A DNA stretch of 64,000 nucleotides from positions 124,001 through 188,000 of the forward strand of contig CACYVN010000001.1 of assembly GCA_902777855.1 (NCBI GenBank), read 5' to 3'. A program made the position numbers and the translations under genes. Positions 28,999 through 56,155 of the stretch are shown piece after piece. The first letter of the stretch is position 1. The number at the start of each line of letters is the position of its first letter. The DNA comes from an uncultured bacterium (GTDB lineage Bacteria > Cyanobacteriota > Vampirovibrionia > Gastranaerophilales > Gastranaerophilaceae). The notes beneath the pieces are model-generated. The model had not been told where the DNA came from. It saw only the letters and a program-made list of their open reading frames with translations, and did not search any database.

Positions 28999-29030
28999 AT
29001 TATAAATTCTTACTATGACAAAATTGGACA
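28999..29030 (-). promoter_or_regulatory. Shared-motif promoter 1 (sigma-4-like operon)
   Basis: On the minus strand TGTCCAATTTTGTCA (29030-29016) is followed after exactly 11 bp by TATAAT (29004-28999). No -35 box at 17 bp. It drives the operon starting at 28966. Confidence 0.85.
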
Positions 29031-29043
29031 TATATAAGGGTTT

Positions 29044-33088: not shown

Positions 33089-33094
33089 AAAATT

Positions 33095-33219
33095 ACTCAT
33101 AAAGAGTGTACGAGGGACAAGCCCGTTGACTACACAGCAACCCTTTAAGTTGGGTGCTAATGCTTGGATGATGAGGACTTATAAAACGGCTCATCATCAA
33201 CGATGAGCCGTTTTCTTTG
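33095..33219 (+). promoter_or_regulatory. SAM-I-type riboswitch with transcription terminator, copy 1
   Basis: P1 pairs CTCAT (33096-33100) with ATGAG (33171-33175). P2 pairs GTGTA with TACAC around CGAGGGACAAGCCCGTTGAC. The core GCAACC and GGTGCTAA, which flank P3, match the SAM-I consensus. Downstream, AAAACGGCTCATC/GATGAGCCGTTTT (33183-33214) plus a T-rich run is a terminator. Its 5' arm can instead pair with the 3' side of P1 (GATGATGAG with CTCATCATC), giving the antiterminator. High SAM should switch the zinc-ribbon gene at 33265 off. Confidence 0.8.
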
Positions 33220-36648: not shown

Positions 36649-36669
36649 CCATTAAACTTCTTATAACTA

Positions 36670-36701
36670 TGACCTATTTTGACACACATATATACAATAA
36701 T
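36670..36701 (+). promoter_or_regulatory. Shared-motif promoter 5
   Basis: TGACCTATTTTGACA (36670-36684), 11 bp, AATAAT (36696-36701). It is divergent from promoter 4, with 21 bp between the two elements, and drives the small gene at 36725. Confidence 0.75.
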
Positions 36702-39109: not shown

Positions 39110-40087
39110 ATGAAAATGGCAGAAGAGCAAGGCAGATATACAAAACTGCAAAACATTTTGAAACTGATTACAACAATGCAGGCGCGGTCGTATGGGATTA
39201 CGCTAAATGATATTCAGCAGGAAGTTGAAGTTTCAAGACGCACGGCAGAACGACTTCGTGATGTTTTGCTAAATGAACTTCCGATTGAAGAACTTGATAA
39301 TTTTCACTCGAAAGAAAAACATTGGGGATTTAGGCGCAGCGGCTATTTAAAAGAAATTATTTCGTTTTCAAAAGACGAAATTGCAGAACTTGAAAATATA
39401 AAAAATGCCATTTCGCACGAAAATCAAAAAGAGCTTTTGGGTAATATTATTGAAAAGCTCAGAGCGTTATCAAATAAAAACGCTGCACAGATTGAAGATG
39501 CCGTCGAAATGCTTTTAAAAACCGAAGGCGTTGCAGTAAGCCAAAGACCGAATTATAAAATTGATGTTAAAAATCTGGAACTGATAAGGCAGGCGATAAA
39601 AGAAAATCGCAGGATAAAATGCAAATATGACGGCAGGGATAAAATCCTTTCACCGTACGGAATTGTATATGGAGAGAATGTATTTTTAATCGGGGTTGAA
39701 TCCAATTGGGAAAATCCTTATGTCTATCGATTCCACAAAATTACAGATATAGAACTGACTTCCCAAACTTTTGATAATGGTGATTTTGACATAAAAACAT
39801 ATGCAAACCGTTCGTTTGGTGTTTATCAAAACGAAGAAATGAAGGTTGAACTATTGTTTTGCGCTGACGTTGCGGAAGATGTTTTGAACTATAATTTCCA
39901 CCCGACACAAAAGGTTAAACGCAATGAAAACGGAACGGTAACGGTGAAATTTAAGGCATCAGGCGAACTGGAAATTTTGTGGCACTTATTCAAATGGGGC
40001 GATGCAGTAAAAATAATCTCTCCCCGTTCCCTCAAGAAAGTATATGTCGAGATGTTAGAGAATGTATTAGAAGCACAAAAGGGGTAA
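39110..40087 (+). CDS. HTH-WYL-WCX transcriptional regulator (WYL2)
   Basis: A 325-residue paralogue of WYL1 with the same order: winged HTH (about 1-70; TLNDIQQEVEVSRRTAERLRDV), WYL (about 145-225; RRIKCKYDGRDKILSPYGIVYG, then VYRFHKITD) and WCX (about 245-325; ILWHLFKWGDAVKII). An alternative ATG lies at 39116. It lies under its own copy of the shared promoter motif and is followed after 4 bp by a nuclease gene. With WYL1 it could form a PafB/PafC-like pair. Confidence 0.92.
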   Translation: MKMAEEQGRYTKLQNILKLITTMQARSYGITLNDIQQEVEVSRRTAERLRDVLLNELPIEELDNFHSKEKHWGFRRSGYLKEIISFSKDEIAELENIKNAISHENQKELLGNIIEKLRALSNKNAAQIEDAVEMLLKTEGVAVSQRPNYKIDVKNLELIRQAIKENRRIKCKYDGRDKILSPYGIVYGENVFLIGVESNWENPYVYRFHKITDIELTSQTFDNGDFDIKTYANRSFGVYQNEEMKVELLFCADVAEDVLNYNFHPTQKVKRNENGTVTVKFKASGELEILWHLFKWGDAVKIISPRSLKKVYVEMLENVLEAQKG

Positions 40088-40091
40088 GTGA

Positions 40092-41990
40092 ATGTCAGAT
40101 ATAAAAGAAAAAAATGAAGATAAAGAAGTTTTGATAAATACCGTATTCACAGGGGATTATACAAATGAAAATATCGGGCATGAAATTATAAACATGTATA
40201 AAACTAACAAAAACGAAAATTACATTTATATTTCTCCTTGGGGAACAGTTGCAAAAGAAAATTATAATAAAATAAAAGAAGTAATTTTTGTCCGTGCTGC
40301 AGGGAAAAATAAATTAGAAATTATTGGCAAAGCATCTGGTTTAAAATATTGGGGAAATGAAAAAATTAATGAAAAATTAAAACAAAAAATAAAAAACGAC
40401 CTTAAAAACTTGAGTTATCCAGAAGATTTTGATAAAAAATTTACCCAAGAAGTTAAAGATTTAGTAAAAAATATTGATGAAAATATATTACAAAAAAAAA
40501 TAAAAGATAAGTCAAAAACAAAAATTAATGTAGAATTTAAACGATTTTTAAATAAATCAGAAGATAACCCTACTAATATTTCGGAAGAACTTATTAATAA
40601 AATTCGTAATTTAGAAAATAATAACAATAAAGAAATAGATAAGTTAAAATTCAGTGCGTATGAAGAAATATATTCCAATACTTACATAGATACTATGATA
40701 TACATAGAATCTATTGTTGATATAATTAAAGAGGCAATTCAAAAGAAAGTAAAAGAAGAAGCAAAAAAAGAAGGTATTGAAAAATTTAAACTGAATACGA
40801 CAACAAAAGACGTTTCGGGTAATTTAAAACAAAGAGCAGAGAAACTTTTAAAAGAATATAATGACGTAAAACGTATTTGCAAATATTTTGAGGCCAAATA
40901 TATTCATGATTTACAACTTGAATATATAGAACAAAAAGAAGTTAAGTATAATTACAAATTCATAAATGAAGTGTTTGAAGGTAATTTTCATAGTGTTCCA
41001 CCAATATATTTAACATTTAAAGCAGATTGTGTAAAAAAAGCAAAGAACTCTATTATTATTGATTACAGTGATACAAAAATAAAAAATATTCTTAAAAAAG
41101 CTCAAGTCAAAAAAGATAACACTGAAGATAATGATGTAAAATTGCGCAATCAGAGTTGTTTATATTATTTATCACAAAAGGATTTTAATAAAATAATTGA
41201 TACAAGTAAAAACGGATATAACAATGATGCAAATTGGGTAGACACTACAAAATTACAAGAGTCCACAGATAAAAATGATGAAGAAACATTTATAGATATA
41301 ATAAGAAAACCATACGATGAACTTGTTTTTTCAAATATGATTGCATATTATTTTGAAAATGATAAAGAGTTGTTTAAAAAGTTTTATAAATATCTAAAAT
41401 CAATTATAAATAACGACACTATAAAAGAAGATGAATTAACAATAAATGAAACATACGAAATATCAAGAGAATATAAAGTCGATAATGGAAGAATTGATAT
41501 ATTAATCAGGACAGATGACAGTCTTTTTATAATTGAAAACAAAATAAAATCTGATATAAATGGTAAACAATATGACCCATACACAGGTAAATATTCAAAT
41601 CAACTTATAAACTATTATAAGCATTTTAATCCTGATGAAAAAAATGGAGTTGATGAGGATTTTAAAAATATAAAACAATATTATTTTATATTCACTCCAA
41701 ACTATAATAAAATTGATAAGGAAAAAATAAAAGAAATAATACAATCGTCCAAAAATATGCCCGAGAAAGAAATCAATAAATCATGTAAGATTATTGATTT
41801 ATATAATATTATTGCTTATGAAGATTTATATAAATTTTTTAAAGAAAATAAACCAAAACAGGTAACTTCTGTTAAACAAAAAATTTATTTCGAAGATTTT
41901 ATTAGTTCTTTAGAGCAACATTCACATAGTTGTGATGATGTTGTTGAACGCAGAATGGAAAATGAATTTAGACAAAAAACAAAAAAATAA
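40092..41990 (+). CDS. Large PD-(D/E)XK nuclease-domain protein
   Basis: A 632-residue protein. The C-terminal part (about 455-560) shows REYKVDNGRIDILI and LFIIENKIKSD, the D...ExK core of the PD-(D/E)XK nuclease superfamily, followed by QLINYYKHF. The N-terminal 300 residues are helical and highly charged; the start (VFTGDYTNENIGHEIINMY, then IYISPWGTVAKE) suggests a separate small domain I do not recognise. It is in the WYL2 operon. Nucleases controlled by WYL regulators are common in phage defence, so this is a candidate effector. Confidence 0.75.
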   Translation: MSDIKEKNEDKEVLINTVFTGDYTNENIGHEIINMYKTNKNENYIYISPWGTVAKENYNKIKEVIFVRAAGKNKLEIIGKASGLKYWGNEKINEKLKQKIKNDLKNLSYPEDFDKKFTQEVKDLVKNIDENILQKKIKDKSKTKINVEFKRFLNKSEDNPTNISEELINKIRNLENNNNKEIDKLKFSAYEEIYSNTYIDTMIYIESIVDIIKEAIQKKVKEEAKKEGIEKFKLNTTTKDVSGNLKQRAEKLLKEYNDVKRICKYFEAKYIHDLQLEYIEQKEVKYNYKFINEVFEGNFHSVPPIYLTFKADCVKKAKNSIIIDYSDTKIKNILKKAQVKKDNTEDNDVKLRNQSCLYYLSQKDFNKIIDTSKNGYNNDANWVDTTKLQESTDKNDEETFIDIIRKPYDELVFSNMIAYYFENDKELFKKFYKYLKSIINNDTIKEDELTINETYEISREYKVDNGRIDILIRTDDSLFIIENKIKSDINGKQYDPYTGKYSNQLINYYKHFNPDEKNGVDEDFKNIKQYYFIFTPNYNKIDKEKIKEIIQSSKNMPEKEINKSCKIIDLYNIIAYEDLYKFFKENKPKQVTSVKQKIYFEDFISSLEQHSHSCDDVVERRMENEFRQKTKK

Positions 41991-41996
41991 AACCTA

Positions 41997-42028
41997 TGAC
42001 CTAATTTGACATAGTGGAGTGATAATAT
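41997..42028 (+). promoter_or_regulatory. Shared-motif promoter 7 (candidate ncRNA)
   Basis: TGACCTAATTTGACA (41997-42011), 11 bp, TAATAT (42023-42028). No protein gene of normal size follows; it leads into the structured RNA region ending at 42146. Confidence 0.75.
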
Positions 42029-42034
42029 AAAAAT

Positions 42035-42146
42035 ATCGGCGGGTGGTTCGCCCGACCATGAATAATAACAGAGGCAAAACTGATTTCTCCCTTCGGTCGA
42101 AATCGTTTTCCCTTTTCAAAAACCGACCTTCACAGGTCGGTTTTTT
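42035..42146 (+). ncRNA. Candidate small structured RNA, convergent to the RT gene
   Basis: From the predicted start near 42035 the transcript would be about 112 nt. It has a GGCG/CGCC hairpin (from about 42038), a hairpin GATTTC/GAAATC (42082-42104) and a strong terminator (42123-42146). CGACC of the first hairpin could also pair with GGTCG of the terminator, allowing an alternative fold. A 47-codon frame (ATG at 42059) runs through it but lacks a ribosome site. It faces the reverse transcriptase gene from the other strand. Confidence 0.5.
42123..42146. terminator. Bidirectional rho-independent terminator
   Basis: CCGACCT (42123-42129) pairs with AGGTCGG (42134-42140), flanked by an A-run on the left and six T on the right. 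It ends the candidate ncRNA on the plus strand and the RT operon on the minus strand. Confidence 0.85.
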
Positions 42147-42190
42147 GATCGGAAAGGTTAGAGTAAATAAAAAGGATAGTATGAGGAACA

Positions 42191-43033
42191 TTAGAGATTA
42201 ACATTTAAACTTTTGGCATAATGCATCAATTTATTATAACTTTTTTCATCAACCTGTTTTGTGTAGGCTAGGTATCCTTTGAGTTTGGCGATAGATTTTT
42301 CATCCCAGGTTCTGAATTTAAGATCGATTTCTTTTGCTCCGCTTGATTGATAAACAGAATAACTATGTATCATTGCACGCAATTTTTTTCGCAAAGTTTT
42401 TGGTAACCTGACATCTTTATTATTCACAACAACACCTAATACATTTTGCTGTTTGTTATCAGAAATATATTTTGTCTTTCTATCATTCAATTTGTAACCG
42501 AAATTTTCCAAAGTTTTTTGCACAAATTTTTCAATCATATTAAGTAAATATTTATCCTCTGATGAAAAAATCATATCGTCCATATAGCGAGAATAATCAA
42601 CACAAAATGCATTGCAGTATGCTCTTATTCTTTTATCCACAGGCGAAAAACAGGCATTTGCGATATGAGCTGATGTTGGTGCACCTGTCGGAAGTTTACC
42701 GTTCAGGGTTGTAATCATCAGATAATAATTCACATCCGCATTTTTAATTTTTTTGCAGGTATTTTTTACGACTTTTTCAATATATTCATGCGGCACAGAG
42801 TTATAAAAATCTTTTATATCCATTTTTAAAACCCACTTTTTACCGCAATGAATTTTTGCAGATTTAAAAGTGTTTATTTTTAGCGGATATGTCCAATTCA
42901 GTGCCGTTTTAAAATACCTTTGAACTTTTTTTAATTCATCGCACGGTGCTAAGATTACACGCTTGCCGATTCGGAAAATCGTGTAATAAAGTTCTTGTGT
43001 TAAATATATCTTGTTTTGATTAAAATACGTCAA
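42191..43033 (-). CDS. Retron/group II-like reverse transcriptase
   Basis: A 280-residue RT. Motif A is DIKDFYNSVPH, motif B LPTGAPTSAHIAN, and the catalytic YMDD lies in DYSRYMDDMIF near residue 150; NVLGVVVNNK with LPKTLRKKLRAMI resembles the thumb region of retron RTs. The start is TTG (43033) after GGAG. It overlaps the DnaB-like gene by 14 bp, so both are made together. No maturase or primase domain. No msr-msd or template/variable repeats were identified near it, so whether it is a retron or another defence-type RT is open. Confidence 0.88.
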   Translation of the reverse strand: MTYFNQNKIYLTQELYYTIFRIGKRVILAPCDELKKVQRYFKTALNWTYPLKINTFKSAKIHCGKKWVLKMDIKDFYNSVPHEYIEKVVKNTCKKIKNADVNYYLMITTLNGKLPTGAPTSAHIANACFSPVDKRIRAYCNAFCVDYSRYMDDMIFSSEDKYLLNMIEKFVQKTLENFGYKLNDRKTKYISDNKQQNVLGVVVNNKDVRLPKTLRKKLRAMIHSYSVYQSSGAKEIDLKFRTWDEKSIAKLKGYLAYTKQVDEKSYNKLMHYAKSLNVNL

Positions 43034-43877
43034 AATATTTACTCCTTAAATCCGGATAAAATTTTGGGATATTTGCCCGAAACGTAATATGAATAATTCC
43101 ACACGTGCCGAACTTATTTTTGGCAACTATAACTTCGGCTTCTCCTTTTTTTCTTAATTCATCATCTTCTTCCATAAAATTGTAATATTCAGGTCGGTAG
43201 AGAAAAATCACCACATCTGAAATATTTTCGATTGCACCGGATTCCCTCAAATCCGACAGTAAGGGTCTTTTATCACATCTGCTTTCAACTGCTCTTGATA
43301 ACTGCGAAGCAATGAAAATTACAACCCCGTATTCTTTTGCAATCTGTTTTAGTACCTTCATATTTTCTTCGATTTGCGTCAATCTGTCTTGCTTTGGTTT
43401 GCCGCCAAGCAACTGAAAATAATCAATAAATACAACATCCGGTTTTAGCTCTTTTATTGTAAGTTCGATTTCTTCTGTTTTAGTATCTGTATTATCTTCA
43501 ACAAAAAAATCCCATTTAGAAAGATTATTCATCGCATCAGCTAATTTTTCCCAATCTTTTGCAACATAATTATTCAGCTTCGATTTTATAAAACTAACCT
43601 CAGCCCTTTGAAATAAAATCCGTTTTACAAGTTGTTCCTTTGACATTTCTAGTGAAAAATAAATGCACTTTTTATTTTTCAACAAAATATTTTCCATAAC
43701 CGAGAGCATAAAAGTAGTTTTACCCATTGCAGGTCTTGCCCCGATTGTGATAACGGCTCCCTTTTTCTCCTGAATCCCTAAAACCGAATCCAAATCTTCA
43801 AACCCTGTTTCAAAAAGGGTTTTGTTCTGATTTTCCAAATCGTCCCAAACATCTTGTAATAATTTTTCGTCTAACAT
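43020..43877 (-). CDS. DnaB-like replicative helicase, RecA-core only
   Basis: A 285-residue protein equal to the C-terminal ATPase of DnaB. GARPAMGKTT (near residue 50) is Walker A, VVFIDYFQLL Walker B, and ASQLSRAVESR with LSDLRESGAIE are DnaB sensor/arginine motifs. The N-terminal primase-interacting domain (about 150-200 residues) is missing and the start after AAAGGAG is well placed, so this is the natural form. It is first in an operon with the RT, under shared-motif promoter 8. Confidence 0.9.
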   Translation of the reverse strand: MLDEKLLQDVWDDLENQNKTLFETGFEDLDSVLGIQEKKGAVITIGARPAMGKTTFMLSVMENILLKNKKCIYFSLEMSKEQLVKRILFQRAEVSFIKSKLNNYVAKDWEKLADAMNNLSKWDFFVEDNTDTKTEEIELTIKELKPDVVFIDYFQLLGGKPKQDRLTQIEENMKVLKQIAKEYGVVIFIASQLSRAVESRCDKRPLLSDLRESGAIENISDVVIFLYRPEYYNFMEEDDELRKKGEAEVIVAKNKFGTCGIIHITFRANIPKFYPDLRSKYFDVF

Positions 43878-43898: not shown

Positions 43899-43930
43899 AC
43901 ATTAGCATTTACTATCGTCAGAACAGGTCG
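43899..43930 (-). promoter_or_regulatory. Shared-motif promoter 8 (DnaB/RT operon)
   Basis: Minus strand: CGACCTGTTCTGACG (43930-43916), 11 bp, TAATGT (43904-43899), driving the gene at 43877. Confidence 0.75.
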
Positions 43931-43959
43931 TATAAGAAAAAGTAATTTTAGAATTTGCA

Positions 43960-43991
43960 TGACCTGTTTTGACATGATTTGTGTCTATAAT
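43960..43991 (+). promoter_or_regulatory. Shared-motif promoter 9
   Basis: TGACCTGTTTTGACA (43960-43974), 11 bp, TATAAT (43986-43991). It is divergent from promoter 8 and drives the small lipid- or membrane-anchored protein at 44010. Confidence 0.8.
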
Positions 43992-44396: not shown

Positions 44397-45092
44397 CTAC
44401 ATATATTTTTTATAAATTTCTTGAGCATATTTTTTCTCTTGTCCTGATATATTAGTTGAATGACGACCACAATGCAAAAAAGTTGGTAAGCAAATGATAT
44501 TATCTATTCTATTATCTCTGGCATCATTACCTGGTATATTGACAATGTGATGTAAGGCTATTCCAAAAAAATGTTTACCATTTTTTTTCATAATATTTAA
44601 AAGTTCTGTTTTTTCTTTTTCATACGGATTAAAATAACCGCTACGAATAAGCTTATATATTGCATCATTTTGTAATTTCGGAAAATCTTTATATTTTTGA
44701 TTAAATTTTTCCCCCTTAATATTTCCATCATCATCAATTTCAATAAACCAACATTTATTATTTTTATCCTTAATTGCATACTCATAATTATTTTGGCCTG
44801 TTGTTTTAACAAGTATAACAATACCCAACTTATTTACATAATATTGATAATTTTTACTACATGACCAAGCATAATAAAACTTCTTTGCATTATTATGAAT
44901 GATAATGCTTTCTAAATCGTTGGCCTGCGTTTTTTCAATCTGTTTTATCCAGTCTTTAGCATTGTCTTTTAAATCATCGTGAGTGTAAAAATATTTTAAA
45001 AGTAATTTAAAATCATTATTACTAAGTTTATTACAAATAACATCATATAGAGCTTTGAGTAAAACACATTTTACTTTTGCTATATTAAGCAT
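44397..45092 (-). CDS. Hypothetical protein with possible C-terminal HNH-like site
   Basis: I choose the ATG at 45092, which follows GGAGGT and overlaps the stop of the upstream HNH gene; this gives 231 residues. The C-terminus (ALHHIVNIPGNDARDNRIDN, then LPTFLHCGRHSTN) has the H-H-N-H spacing seen in HNH nucleases, but the match is weak. The N-terminal half is unassigned. It is coupled to an HNH/NUMOD4 gene under promoter 10. Confidence 0.6.
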   Translation of the reverse strand: MLNIAKVKCVLLKALYDVICNKLSNNDFKLLLKYFYTHDDLKDNAKDWIKQIEKTQANDLESIIIHNNAKKFYYAWSCSKNYQYYVNKLGIVILVKTTGQNNYEYAIKDKNNKCWFIEIDDDGNIKGEKFNQKYKDFPKLQNDAIYKLIRSGYFNPYEKEKTELLNIMKKNGKHFFGIALHHIVNIPGNDARDNRIDNIICLPTFLHCGRHSTNISGQEKKYAQEIYKKYM

Positions 45093-45534
45093 TGCCACCT
45101 CCGATTTCAAACCCATGCACATAAGAATGTTCGTCTTTGGTTAATAATACAAGATTGTCTGTCGTATTATAATAACCGTCATTTGTGATGTGATGAACGT
45201 GCATCCCGTCACCCTCTATTTTACCCAAAAATGTATATGCTACAAAATTGTAAATATAATCTTTTCGCAAATTTTCATCAGCAAGAGTTACATAACCGGT
45301 TTTTTCATCTTTTTGTTTCTGAATTTGTCCTTTATATTTTATCCTGCCTAAATTGCTTACGGTATAATTCTCATCTAGCGGAAATGTTTTCCATATTTCA
45401 CCCTGAAAATCATTTTCGCAGTAATTAAATGCCGGTGAAATTGCTCTGCGTTTTTCCAAATCTTCAAATTGCGGCTTATAATCTTTTAGCGTTTTTTTTA
45501 ACTTGTCTAAATAAATTTTTCTTGTGTTGTCCAT
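45085..45534 (-). CDS. NUMOD4/HNH endonuclease
   Basis: A 149-residue protein. IWKTFPLDENYTVSNLGRIK (about residues 47-66) is the NUMOD4 DNA-binding motif, and MHVHHITNDGYYNTTDNLVL with HSYVHG (about 110-143) the HNH site. Such proteins are common homing-type or phage nucleases. Start ATG after AAGGAGG; promoter 10 is 24 bp upstream. Confidence 0.85.
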   Translation of the reverse strand: MDNTRKIYLDKLKKTLKDYKPQFEDLEKRRAISPAFNYCENDFQGEIWKTFPLDENYTVSNLGRIKYKGQIQKQKDEKTGYVTLADENLRKDYIYNFVAYTFLGKIEGDGMHVHHITNDGYYNTTDNLVLLTKDEHSYVHGFEIGGGNA

Positions 45535-45676: not shown

Positions 45677-47665
45677 ATGAACAATTTTGAAAAGCGTTTG
45701 TTTTTGGATTATTTAAGCAAATTATTACCTGAAACAGATTTTAAACATTACAACTTTGATCAGATATTTGAATTTTTCCTTCAGGAATTTAATATTCCTA
45801 AAAAAACTTTTGGACTTGAAGAAAATGAGGATTTGGCGATTGTATCATATAAAGAAAGAGATAAATTTTTAAAAACAATGAATAAAGTTGTTAAAAATTT
45901 ATCTGAAAAAATTAAACCACAAAACACTCTGTTAGAAAAACAATTTTTGATGATTAAAGATATTTATAATCTGAATAATGACGAATATAAAGTATTTTTA
46001 TACAGCGGGATAAAGGAAATTAACAACATCTTTAATATGTATTTTGATTGTATAAACGGAAATACTTTTGCTACGTTTGCCAAGGAGTATTTGAAAATCA
46101 GGGTAGGGAAAAAAGAGCGAATTACAAATAAACTTTATATGAAGAATATAATTACTCACAATCGTGGGAATGTTGAAATTAATGAGGATTTATTAAAAAT
46201 TTTTGACAATCCGAACTGCAACAGTTCAACCAAAGTTATGAATACAATTTTAGGTAAAACACAAAAATCCAAATTGTGTAAAAAAGATTATTCACATAAG
46301 CAAAAAGATTTTGAAACAGTTGCTAAAATCCTGTCTTCTGCAGTTGAACAAAATAAAACCGGCATTAATATTTTGCTTTATGGTGGAGTCGGAACAGGTA
46401 AAACCGAGTTTGCAAAGCTTGTCTGCAACAGTGCGAAAATACCTGTATATGAAGTTAAAACAGTTGATTCAGATTTTGAGGAAACCACTAGAAGAGAAAG
46501 GTTAGTCGATTTGTATTCAAAACAATATGTTTTGGCAAATACAAGAAAATCCTGCATATTATTTGACGAAGCTGAAGACGTTATGAACAGAGGATTTGGG
46601 AATAATGGTGAGGCCTCAAAAGGGTATCTGAATGATTTGCTTGATAAGGTTTCTGTTCCTGTAATCTGGACAACAAATAATATCTATGATGTTGATCCGG
46701 CGTTTTTGCGCAGAATGACATATTGTGTTGAATTTGAAAAGTTATCAGAGCAAAACCGACTTTCTGTCTGGCATAAAATTCTGAAAAAAAATCAATTTAA
46801 GGTTGATAACAAAAAAATTGAAGAACTAAATAAAAATTACGATATTCCGCCGTCATTGATTTCAAATGCTGTGCAAACAACCAAAATGATTGGCGGGAAT
46901 GAAGATGATTTTGAAGGTTTTATAGAAAATGTTGCCAAGGTAGTGACAAAGAAAAAGAATGTAAAAAACAAAAAGGAATTTGATGTTAAAAATTACGACA
47001 TAAATCTTGTAAATACCGACATTGATATGGACGATTTGACTAAAAAAATACAAAAATCAAGGAAATTAAATTTTTCACTTTGCATGTACGGGGAGCCCGG
47101 AACCGGAAAAAGTCTTTATGCAAGATATTTAGCAGACACCTTAGGGATTGAAGTTGTATTTAAACGGGCATCAGATCTTATAAGTAAATGGGTCGGTGAA
47201 ACTGAACAAAATATTGCCGCAGCTTTTGAGGAAGCAAAATCTAAAAAAGCAATGCTGATTTTTGATGAAGCAGACACTTTTTTGCAGAACAGAAATAATG
47301 CGCAACGCAGCTGGGAAATCTCTCAGGTAAATGAGATGCTTACCTGGATGGAATCTCATGAATATCCGTTTGTTTGCACTACAAATTTGCTTGAGAGTTT
47401 GGATGAAGCAAGCCTACGCCGATTCACTTTCAAAATTCGTTTTGACTTTATGACAAATGAACAGGTTAATCACGCGATAGAACACTTTTTTGGAATACAA
47501 GGCGCAAATGTTAATATTAAAGGTTTAACGGCAGGTGATTTTGCAACTGTCAAGAAGAAAATTGATTTTTTAGGGATAAAGGATTTAGACGAAATAACAA
47601 AAATGCTCAATGACGAAGTTAAAGTCAAAAAATCAAATGAGCTAAAAAACAGTATTGGGTTTTAA
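45677..47665 (+). CDS. Tandem AAA+ ATPase
   Basis: A 662-residue protein with an N-terminal helical region (1-215) and two AAA+ modules. Module 1: Walker A GGVGTGKT (about 235), Walker B ILFDEAED (about 295), RRMTYCVEFE sensor 2 region. Module 2: Walker A GEPGTGKS (about 471), Walker B LIFDEADT (about 530), SLRRFTFKIRF. The second resembles FtsH/spastin/Cdc48-type AAA domains. No protease site. It is a probable hexameric unfoldase or remodeller of the island, expressed from promoter 11. Confidence 0.88.
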   Translation: MNNFEKRLFLDYLSKLLPETDFKHYNFDQIFEFFLQEFNIPKKTFGLEENEDLAIVSYKERDKFLKTMNKVVKNLSEKIKPQNTLLEKQFLMIKDIYNLNNDEYKVFLYSGIKEINNIFNMYFDCINGNTFATFAKEYLKIRVGKKERITNKLYMKNIITHNRGNVEINEDLLKIFDNPNCNSSTKVMNTILGKTQKSKLCKKDYSHKQKDFETVAKILSSAVEQNKTGINILLYGGVGTGKTEFAKLVCNSAKIPVYEVKTVDSDFEETTRRERLVDLYSKQYVLANTRKSCILFDEAEDVMNRGFGNNGEASKGYLNDLLDKVSVPVIWTTNNIYDVDPAFLRRMTYCVEFEKLSEQNRLSVWHKILKKNQFKVDNKKIEELNKNYDIPPSLISNAVQTTKMIGGNEDDFEGFIENVAKVVTKKKNVKNKKEFDVKNYDINLVNTDIDMDDLTKKIQKSRKLNFSLCMYGEPGTGKSLYARYLADTLGIEVVFKRASDLISKWVGETEQNIAAAFEEAKSKKAMLIFDEADTFLQNRNNAQRSWEISQVNEMLTWMESHEYPFVCTTNLLESLDEASLRRFTFKIRFDFMTNEQVNHAIEHFFGIQGANVNIKGLTAGDFATVKKKIDFLGIKDLDEITKMLNDEVKVKKSNELKNSIGF

Positions 47666-55255: not shown

Positions 55256-55377
55256 AACCTATAAAGAGTGTGCGAGGGACAAGCCCGTTGACCACACAGC
55301 AACCTTTTAAGTTAGGTGCTAAAGCTTGTATGATGGGTTGAAATAATACTCATCATAACCGATGGGTATTTTTGTTT
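55256..55377 (+). promoter_or_regulatory. SAM-I-type riboswitch with transcription terminator, copy 2
   Basis: P1 pairs AACCTAT (55256-55262) with ATGGGTT (55333-55339). P2 GTGTG/CACAC replaces GTGTA/TACAC of copy 1, and a C-G pair in P3 becomes T-A, so both stems covary between copies. The core CGAGGGACAAGCCCGTTGAC, GCAACC and GGTGCTAA is unchanged. The terminator AATACTCATC/GATGGGTATT (55345-55370) plus T-run can be broken by pairing of ATGATGGGT with ACTCATCAT. It controls the amidohydrolase gene at 55409. Confidence 0.8.
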
Positions 55378-55408: not shown

Positions 55409-56155
55409 ATGAACAATATTTTAATTCACATTCCACATAGTAGCTACGTTATTCCAGATGAATACAAAGATTTATTTTATTTAGTGGATAATGAGCTTTT
55501 ACAGGAACAAATCAAAATGTCAGACAGTTATACAGACGAACTGTTTGACGTTGAGGGAATTCAAAAACTTATATTCCCTATAAGCAGACTTGTTTGTGAT
55601 GTAGAAAGGTTTAGAAATGAAGAAGATGAAGAAATGTCAAAGCAGGGAATGTGGGTTTGTTATACCAAAACATCTAATTGTAAGCCTTTGAAAAGAGTTA
55701 ATAATGAGCATAAACTAGAAATTTTGCAAAAATACTATGATAAACACCACCTCAATTTTGAAAAACAAGTATCACAAATGCTCAAACAAGGTCAATGTTT
55801 AATTATTGATTCACACTCGTTTTCTTCTAAGCCACTACCTTATGAACTCCATGCACAAACTTTCCGTCCAGATATCTGTGTTGGAACAGATAATTTTCAT
55901 ACCCCATATAAAATAACTAATTATTTTTATAATGCATTTTCTGATTTTGGTTATAAAGTCGGTATAAATAATCCATTTTGCGGAACAATTGTTCCTTTGA
56001 AGTTTTATAGAAAAAATAAAAACGTAAATTCGGTTATGCTTGAGATAAATCGTTCTTTATACATGGATGAGGATAAGGGTAAGAAAAATAAAAATTTTGC
56101 AAGAATAAAAAGAAATATTGAACAAGTAGTTTCACTATGTCCGTTTCTGACATAG
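55409..56155 (+). CDS. N-formylglutamate amidohydrolase-like protein
   Basis: A 248-residue protein. HIPHSSYVIPDEY at the N-terminus, DRYTDELF-like SDSYTDELF, SRLVCDVERF and DSHSFSSKP are conserved blocks of the FGase family, a zinc hydrolase that acts on N-formylglutamate in histidine breakdown. Here it lies in an accessory cassette under a SAM-I-type riboswitch, so the substrate may differ. Its last codons contain shared-motif promoter 13. Confidence 0.8.
   Translation: MNNILIHIPHSSYVIPDEYKDLFYLVDNELLQEQIKMSDSYTDELFDVEGIQKLIFPISRLVCDVERFRNEEDEEMSKQGMWVCYTKTSNCKPLKRVNNEHKLEILQKYYDKHHLNFEKQVSQMLKQGQCLIIDSHSFSSKPLPYELHAQTFRPDICVGTDNFHTPYKITNYFYNAFSDFGYKVGINNPFCGTIVPLKFYRKNKNVNSVMLEINRSLYMDEDKGKKNKNFARIKRNIEQVVSLCPFLT

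Follow-up and report, generated by a model that had tools for sequence, protein, structure and literature searches.

A DnaB-type helicase motor, a retron-clade reverse transcriptase and a convergent structured RNA form a conserved three-part unit in Gastranaerophilaceae

Introduction

Retrons, which are divided into 13 types by effector (PMC12548924), join a short reverse transcriptase (RT) to an effector protein and a structured noncoding RNA (ncRNA); their msr-msd lies 5′ of the RT gene on the same strand and has a1/a2 pairing. DRT2, DRT9 and the other DRT (UG) systems also have an RT with a neighbouring ncRNA and rely on DNA synthesis in phage defence. Replicative DnaB and the phage DnaB-like helicases possess a RecA-like motor domain with a linker. 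Here, we describe a locus in a 64,000-nt window of a Gastranaerophilaceae genome that shares features with each of these groups (all coordinates without a locus name are positions in this window, position 1 being its first letter). The locus resembles retrons in the clade and fold of its RT, in the short length of that RT and its lack of an extra domain, in an effector-like second protein, and in its structured ncRNA, defence-island context and patchy distribution; the retron RT models of type X and St85/II-A are the closest. It differs from retrons in having a DnaB-type motor as partner, which lies outside the effector types described in the PADLOC models and the open-access papers searched, in altered NAXXH and VTG motifs, and in an ncRNA that is encoded 3′ of the RT on the opposite strand, from its own predicted promoter and with no a1/a2 pairing. 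Compared with the DRT systems, the RT is far closer to retrons, and compared with DnaB, the helicase keeps the motor domain, linker and catalytic motifs but has no N-terminal domain and stands in a fixed partnership with an RT.

Results

Both genes were found at the places given for them by the original prediction (Table 1), and their 14-nt overlap (43020–43033) was confirmed provided that the TTG codon is the true RT start; in close relatives the ATG of the RT gene overlaps the dnaB stop codon by 1 nt. A single promoter-like site was seen 5′ of dnaB, and because the genes overlap they are likely to share a transcript, in keeping with the one-promoter operon that had been proposed. Pfam identified DnaB_C alone in the helicase ORF (residues 23–273, 3.1e-71), consistent with the claim that the DnaB N-terminal domain is absent, and comparison with the PDB gave DnaB matches down to 5e-47. 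Relatives of the helicase retain the Walker A (GARPAMGKT), Walker B (FIDY), DKRP and YR motifs, and dN/dS values of 0.05–0.32 indicate purifying selection on dnaB. None of the PADLOC retron models matched the DnaB_C protein, and mad8 matched it weakly.

Table 1. Predicted features of the unit, with their positions in the window.
Feature	Position	Strand	Basis or remark
DnaB-type helicase motor, 285 aa, ATG start	43020..43877	−	RecA-like C-terminal domain and linker, without N-terminal domain
Retron-clade RT, 280 aa, YMDD intact, TTG start	42191..43033	−	RVT_1, PADLOC, fold, tree
Conserved structured ncRNA, ~115 nt, convergent with RT	42034..42149	+	Covariance model, covariation
SL1 hairpin, conserved sequence, covarying stem	42038..42057	+	Probable protein-recognition element
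SL2 hairpin, hypervariable sequence, hairpin retained	42070..42115	+	Candidate template (msd-like)
SL3 hairpin, terminator-like, covarying stem	42120..42143	+	Alignment, folds
ncRNA promoter	41995..42028	+	Palindrome TATGACCTAATTTGACATA at 41995–42013, −10 TAATAT at 42023–42028
dnaB-RT promoter	43899..43932	−	Same palindrome type at 43914–43932, weak −10

The RT ORF contained Pfam RVT_1 (1.6e-22), and a search with the window RT as query returned it as the single RT gene of the genome. The top PADLOC model was retron RT_X (type X; 170.7 bits, 1e-50), with II-A only 4 bits lower and III-A also close, and the top curated NCBIfam model was retron St85 at 175.9 bits, under its cut-off of 235 bits. 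When PDB sequences were searched with phmmer, a retron RT was matched at 6e-19 versus 3.6e-4 for DRT2. The AlphaFold model of the RT (pLDDT 91.6) was compared with the PDB by Foldseek; the first 18 fold matches were all retron RTs, and the match to a DGR RT was far weaker. In a tree made with a limited reference set, 30 DnaB-linked RTs formed a single clade (support 100/99) among the retron RTs; long branches and the narrow reference set limit its exact placement, and the long branches leave the precise sister group uncertain. The RT is a member of the retron radiation, in which it forms a clade of its own that is not a known class always accompanied by a DnaB-type helicase. Of the earlier label "retron/group II-like", the retron half is upheld by profile, tree and fold, whereas the group II half is not, since the protein scores far better with retron models and structures; the group II model TIGR04416 gave 54 bits against a cut-off of 300. 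A group II intron RT was also rejected because the 280-aa protein comprises the RT only, without maturase X/En domains, and an Rfam search of the region matched no intron RNA. Assignment to the DRT/UG RTs was dismissed because the protein falls far below the curated family cut-offs (23–55 bits with the Drt2/3/4/5 NCBIfam models, versus cut-offs of 200–550).

Two retron signatures are modified in this clade. In region X, NAXXH has become xAXXH, with the N replaced, the A nearly invariant and the H invariant; the window RT reads SAKIH, and the other members mostly have S, A, C or T at the N position, which is also without N in 2 of 16 validated retrons (PMC6868368). In region Y, VTG has become xLG, with L199-G200 invariant across 28 aligned RTs; one validated retron has H in place of the T of VTG (PMC6868368). 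The RT relatives retain the RT motifs, including [YF]xDD, and dN/dS values of 0.11–0.16 in the measured pairs indicate purifying selection.

When 383 Gastranaerophilaceae genomes were searched with the window RT, we obtained 36 RT loci with 38–100% identity over most of the query (minimum of 36% in global alignment). A DnaB-C-only helicase gene was located directly 5′ of the RT in 36/36 clade members, so the pair is conserved. In a wider genome collection all 21 loci, which overlap with the family set or add to it, carried the pair; the records labelled Bacteroidales and Christensenella that contain it probably reflect mis-binning. A sample of 30 further retron-type RT loci from the phylum contained none with a DnaB neighbour within ~1.5 kb. 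RT relatives from viral contigs had no adjacent DnaB, the RT matches from phages and plasmids were <40% identical (gene neighbours were viewed in eight such records), and no close relative was found in these three sources. The DnaB-RT pairing is far beyond chance. It is described by no PADLOC or NCBIfam model and in no open-access paper searched, a scope outside which the main 2020 retron classification lies, and within that scope the original prediction that the pairing is not a recognised RT defence system stands; the open-access retron papers searched likewise make no mention of DnaB as a retron effector.

That prediction had also reported no visible msr-msd. This was correct for the usual retron site, but comparison of the sequences 3′ of the RT across loci revealed a structured RNA that reads best on the opposite strand, and the implied lack of a partner RNA is thereby contradicted. 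The elements follow in the order palindromic promoter element, TATAAT-like −10, SL1, SL2 and SL3. The SL1 consensus is GGC-RGYG-NUU-CGCY-GCC, and SL3 is close to the 3′ end of the RT gene, into which it overruns at some loci. A covariance model built from 22 loci, the window's own sequence included, scored the window ncRNA at 86 bits (E 4.7e-16) and also found the held-out loci L031, L032 and L043. In SL1 and SL3, 94.9% of the cells were paired versus 86.7% after shuffling (0/500 shuffles reached the observed value), with 39 double-change cells versus 11.9 in the shuffles, a covariation count that is somewhat favourable in that the alignment counted is the one whose consensus gave the structure. 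Sliding the partner along the alignment reduced the pairing to ~50% or less. The SL2 region folded as a hairpin in 32/32 RNAs examined (mean z −1.7), this hairpin being weak in many single RNAs (z < −1.5 in 14/32). The structure of the ncRNA is under selection.

The folding energy of the whole element does not distinguish the two strands, so the strand call rests on G-U pairs, the promoter and the terminator. In SL1, U-G is present in 8/22 sequences and C-G in the others, which points to the strand opposite the RT; about nine departing cells (two in SL1), fewer than the G-U cells, would favour the other strand. The folds displayed no a1/a2 pairing, and no template or priming site was identified in the ncRNA. 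An Rfam search of the region with curated and permissive settings yielded no family, the best matches, RNAI (E 0.028) and Clostridiales-1 (E 0.037), being at chance level and far under gathering. A small coding gene at this position was rejected on inspection, as some relatives, L037 and L006 among them, lack the ATG after SL1.

Across the family there were 34 ncRNA matches of at least 46 bits: 28 beside DnaB-RT, 2 beside DnaB alone, 3 standing alone and 1 (G278) split. With weaker matches beside RTs taken in, 31/36 RTs have the ncRNA no more than 1 kb away, always on the same, convergent side, and four RTs are without an adjacent ncRNA; G278, where RT and ncRNA are on different short contigs, is in neither count. 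G132 and G374 have no RT-adjacent ncRNA and carry a copy elsewhere in the genome, and in G142 (L028) the ncRNA is missing and dnaB is truncated. Matches below ~36 bits and not near any RT (G000:C1:95880, G288, G214, G310, G265:C40, G365:C6 and G028:C55) were discarded as terminators. RT, dnaB and ncRNA stay together by descent.

Several loci depart from the common arrangement. Single units show apparent decay, with one in-frame TAG in the RT of L018/L048 and the truncated dnaB of L028. The lone ncRNAs, which have neither RT nor DnaB as a direct neighbour, are at L096 (8214–8354), L097 (4733–4870) and L098 (8160–8271), the last being flanked by flavodoxin-like and folC-like genes. An extra ORF of family F13 is situated between RT and ncRNA at L031 (4150–4674), L032 (8840–9364) and L043 (between 3292 and 4126); at L031 and L032 it appears GIY-YIG-like by inspection.

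The predicted promoters of dnaB-RT and of the ncRNA carry the same type of operator. The palindrome was present 50–59 bp 5′ of the dnaB ATG in 25/30 loci and, at constant spacing, ~40 bp 5′ of SL1 in 21 loci, compared with a background of 0.0065 per 150 bp in a shuffled control. A regulon dedicated to the unit was not supported, since the palindrome also occurs 5′ of unrelated genes. Its recurrent form is TAYGWCC-N5-TGWCRTA, followed after about 11 bp by a −10, and it precedes several genes including the WYL gene; further sites in the window are at 29014–29032 (−), 36668–36686 (+), 39070 (+), 43958–43976 (+), 50227 (−) and 56136–56154 (+), and elsewhere in the genome it also lies 5′ of a UvrD-like helicase and a nuclease pair. 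The numbered promoters of the original prediction may be this palindrome.

The unit is located among predicted defence genes. A WYL regulator family is near the unit in 21/30 loci, and WYL regulators co-localise with phage defence (PMC9122601). Beside WYL the cargo changes among a PD-(D/E)XK protein, McrBC-like genes, other nuclease-like proteins and small tyrosine recombinases, names that, besides the window's own, were given by inspection of sequence. In the window (39110–41990, +), a WYL-WCX regulator is closely followed by a 632-aa PDC-S26-like PD-(D/E)XK protein (40092–41990; weak Pfam match, PADLOC PDC-S26 match), and the two are a candidate defence pair; at L032/L033, McrBC-like genes occupy the nuclease position next to WYL-WCX. 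A tandem AAA+ ATPase gene (45677–47665, +; IetA-like by PADLOC) was discounted as a fixed chromosomal flank, because its presence in only 3/46 genomes of the genus makes it part of a variable island. At 44397–45534 (−), an HNH/NUMOD4 protein overlaps a 241-aa ORF that matched no family; this may be a homing-type element. The window also contains two SAM riboswitches (33094–33209 and 55256–55339, +).

Discussion

We interpret the locus, at a probability of about 50%, as a tripartite, retron-like defence unit in which a DnaB-type ATPase serves as the effector. The three-part architecture of RT, DnaB-type motor and ncRNA is strongly supported; from retron biology (PMC13405049, PMC12548924) and the island context, we infer copying of the ncRNA by the RT, an effector role for DnaB and a function of the unit in phage defence. 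The RT would bind the ncRNA via the conserved hairpin SL1 and copy part of it into a short DNA, with the variable SL2 as the best template candidate. The resulting RT-RNA-DNA particle would keep the DnaB-like ATPase inactive, and interference by a phage with the particle would free the motor, which would then turn to replicating DNA and bring about abortive infection in the manner of retron effectors. This interpretation draws on the helicase pairing in all 36 loci, the ncRNA at 31 of them, the covariation of SL1 and SL3 and the retention of SL2; on an RT of retron type by HMM, PDB sequence, AlphaFold/Foldseek and tree; on the common operator type and purifying selection; and on the nearby WYL, McrBC-like and PD-(D/E)XK genes. 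Against it stand the altered NAXXH and VTG motifs, two loci that have no RT, the lone ncRNAs and the four RTs without one; given that no a1/a2 repeats, template or priming site could be identified, copying of the ncRNA stays a proposal. We use the term retron-like rather than retron because the locus has neither the retron signature residues nor an msr-msd with the a1/a2 layout.

More tentatively, the unit may represent a separate class of RT-RNA-helicase machine, in which the ncRNA would be copied or used without a1/a2 priming and either the product or the RNA would load or control the DnaB-type ring. In that case, reverse transcription would be tied directly to a replication motor.

The loci that have no RT bear on another explanation. 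At L094 (8232–9239) and L095 (8631–9638), from the G369/G108 pair of genomes, dnaB and the ncRNA remain in synteny with L039/L047, only the RT being gone, and the family-wide RT search gave no match in either genome. Both dnaB genes keep all motifs, and the three in-stem differences between the two ncRNAs preserve pairing as G-U on the ncRNA strand. Such loci are consistent with a helicase-RNA core, in which the ncRNA would restrain (RNA-antitoxin-like) or guide a toxic DnaB-like protein and the RT would have the accessory role of modifying or sensing that RNA. We consider this unlikely, as the pair represents one RT-less lineage only (five differences between its two dnaB genes), whereas the RT is present at the other 36 loci and is itself under purifying selection.

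It seems rather improbable that the locus is a module for the replication or maintenance of an integrative element, with helicase, RT and RNA serving element replication or cargo exchange rather than defence. The replicative type of the helicase, the varying cargo between the flanks (PD-(D/E)XK versus McrBC versus GIY-YIG) and the tyrosine-recombinase family F6 at some loci would fit such a module, but that family occurs in only 5/30 loci, we recognised no further replication gene among the recurrent neighbours, and viral contigs, phages and plasmids held no close relative. Least probable is an ordinary retron with a true msr-msd that escaped notice, in which case DnaB and the convergent RNA would be bystanders: the RT is clearly of the retron kind, with type X as its best PADLOC model, but inspection 5′ of dnaB and between the genes showed no other conserved element, DnaB and the ncRNA accompany the RT too regularly (36/36 and 31/36), and the other retron-type RTs sampled in the phylum are without a nearby DnaB.

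As a retron-like tripartite unit, the locus would extend the list of retron partners by a replicative-helicase motor, and would also supply an example of a retron-clade RT with an RNA encoded head-on under its own promoter. Searches for msr-msd limited to the 5′ side and the same strand would miss such RNAs. Thanks to the conserved ncRNA, priming and template choice can be tested directly in this RT clade, and the natural RT-less locus provides a built-in comparison.
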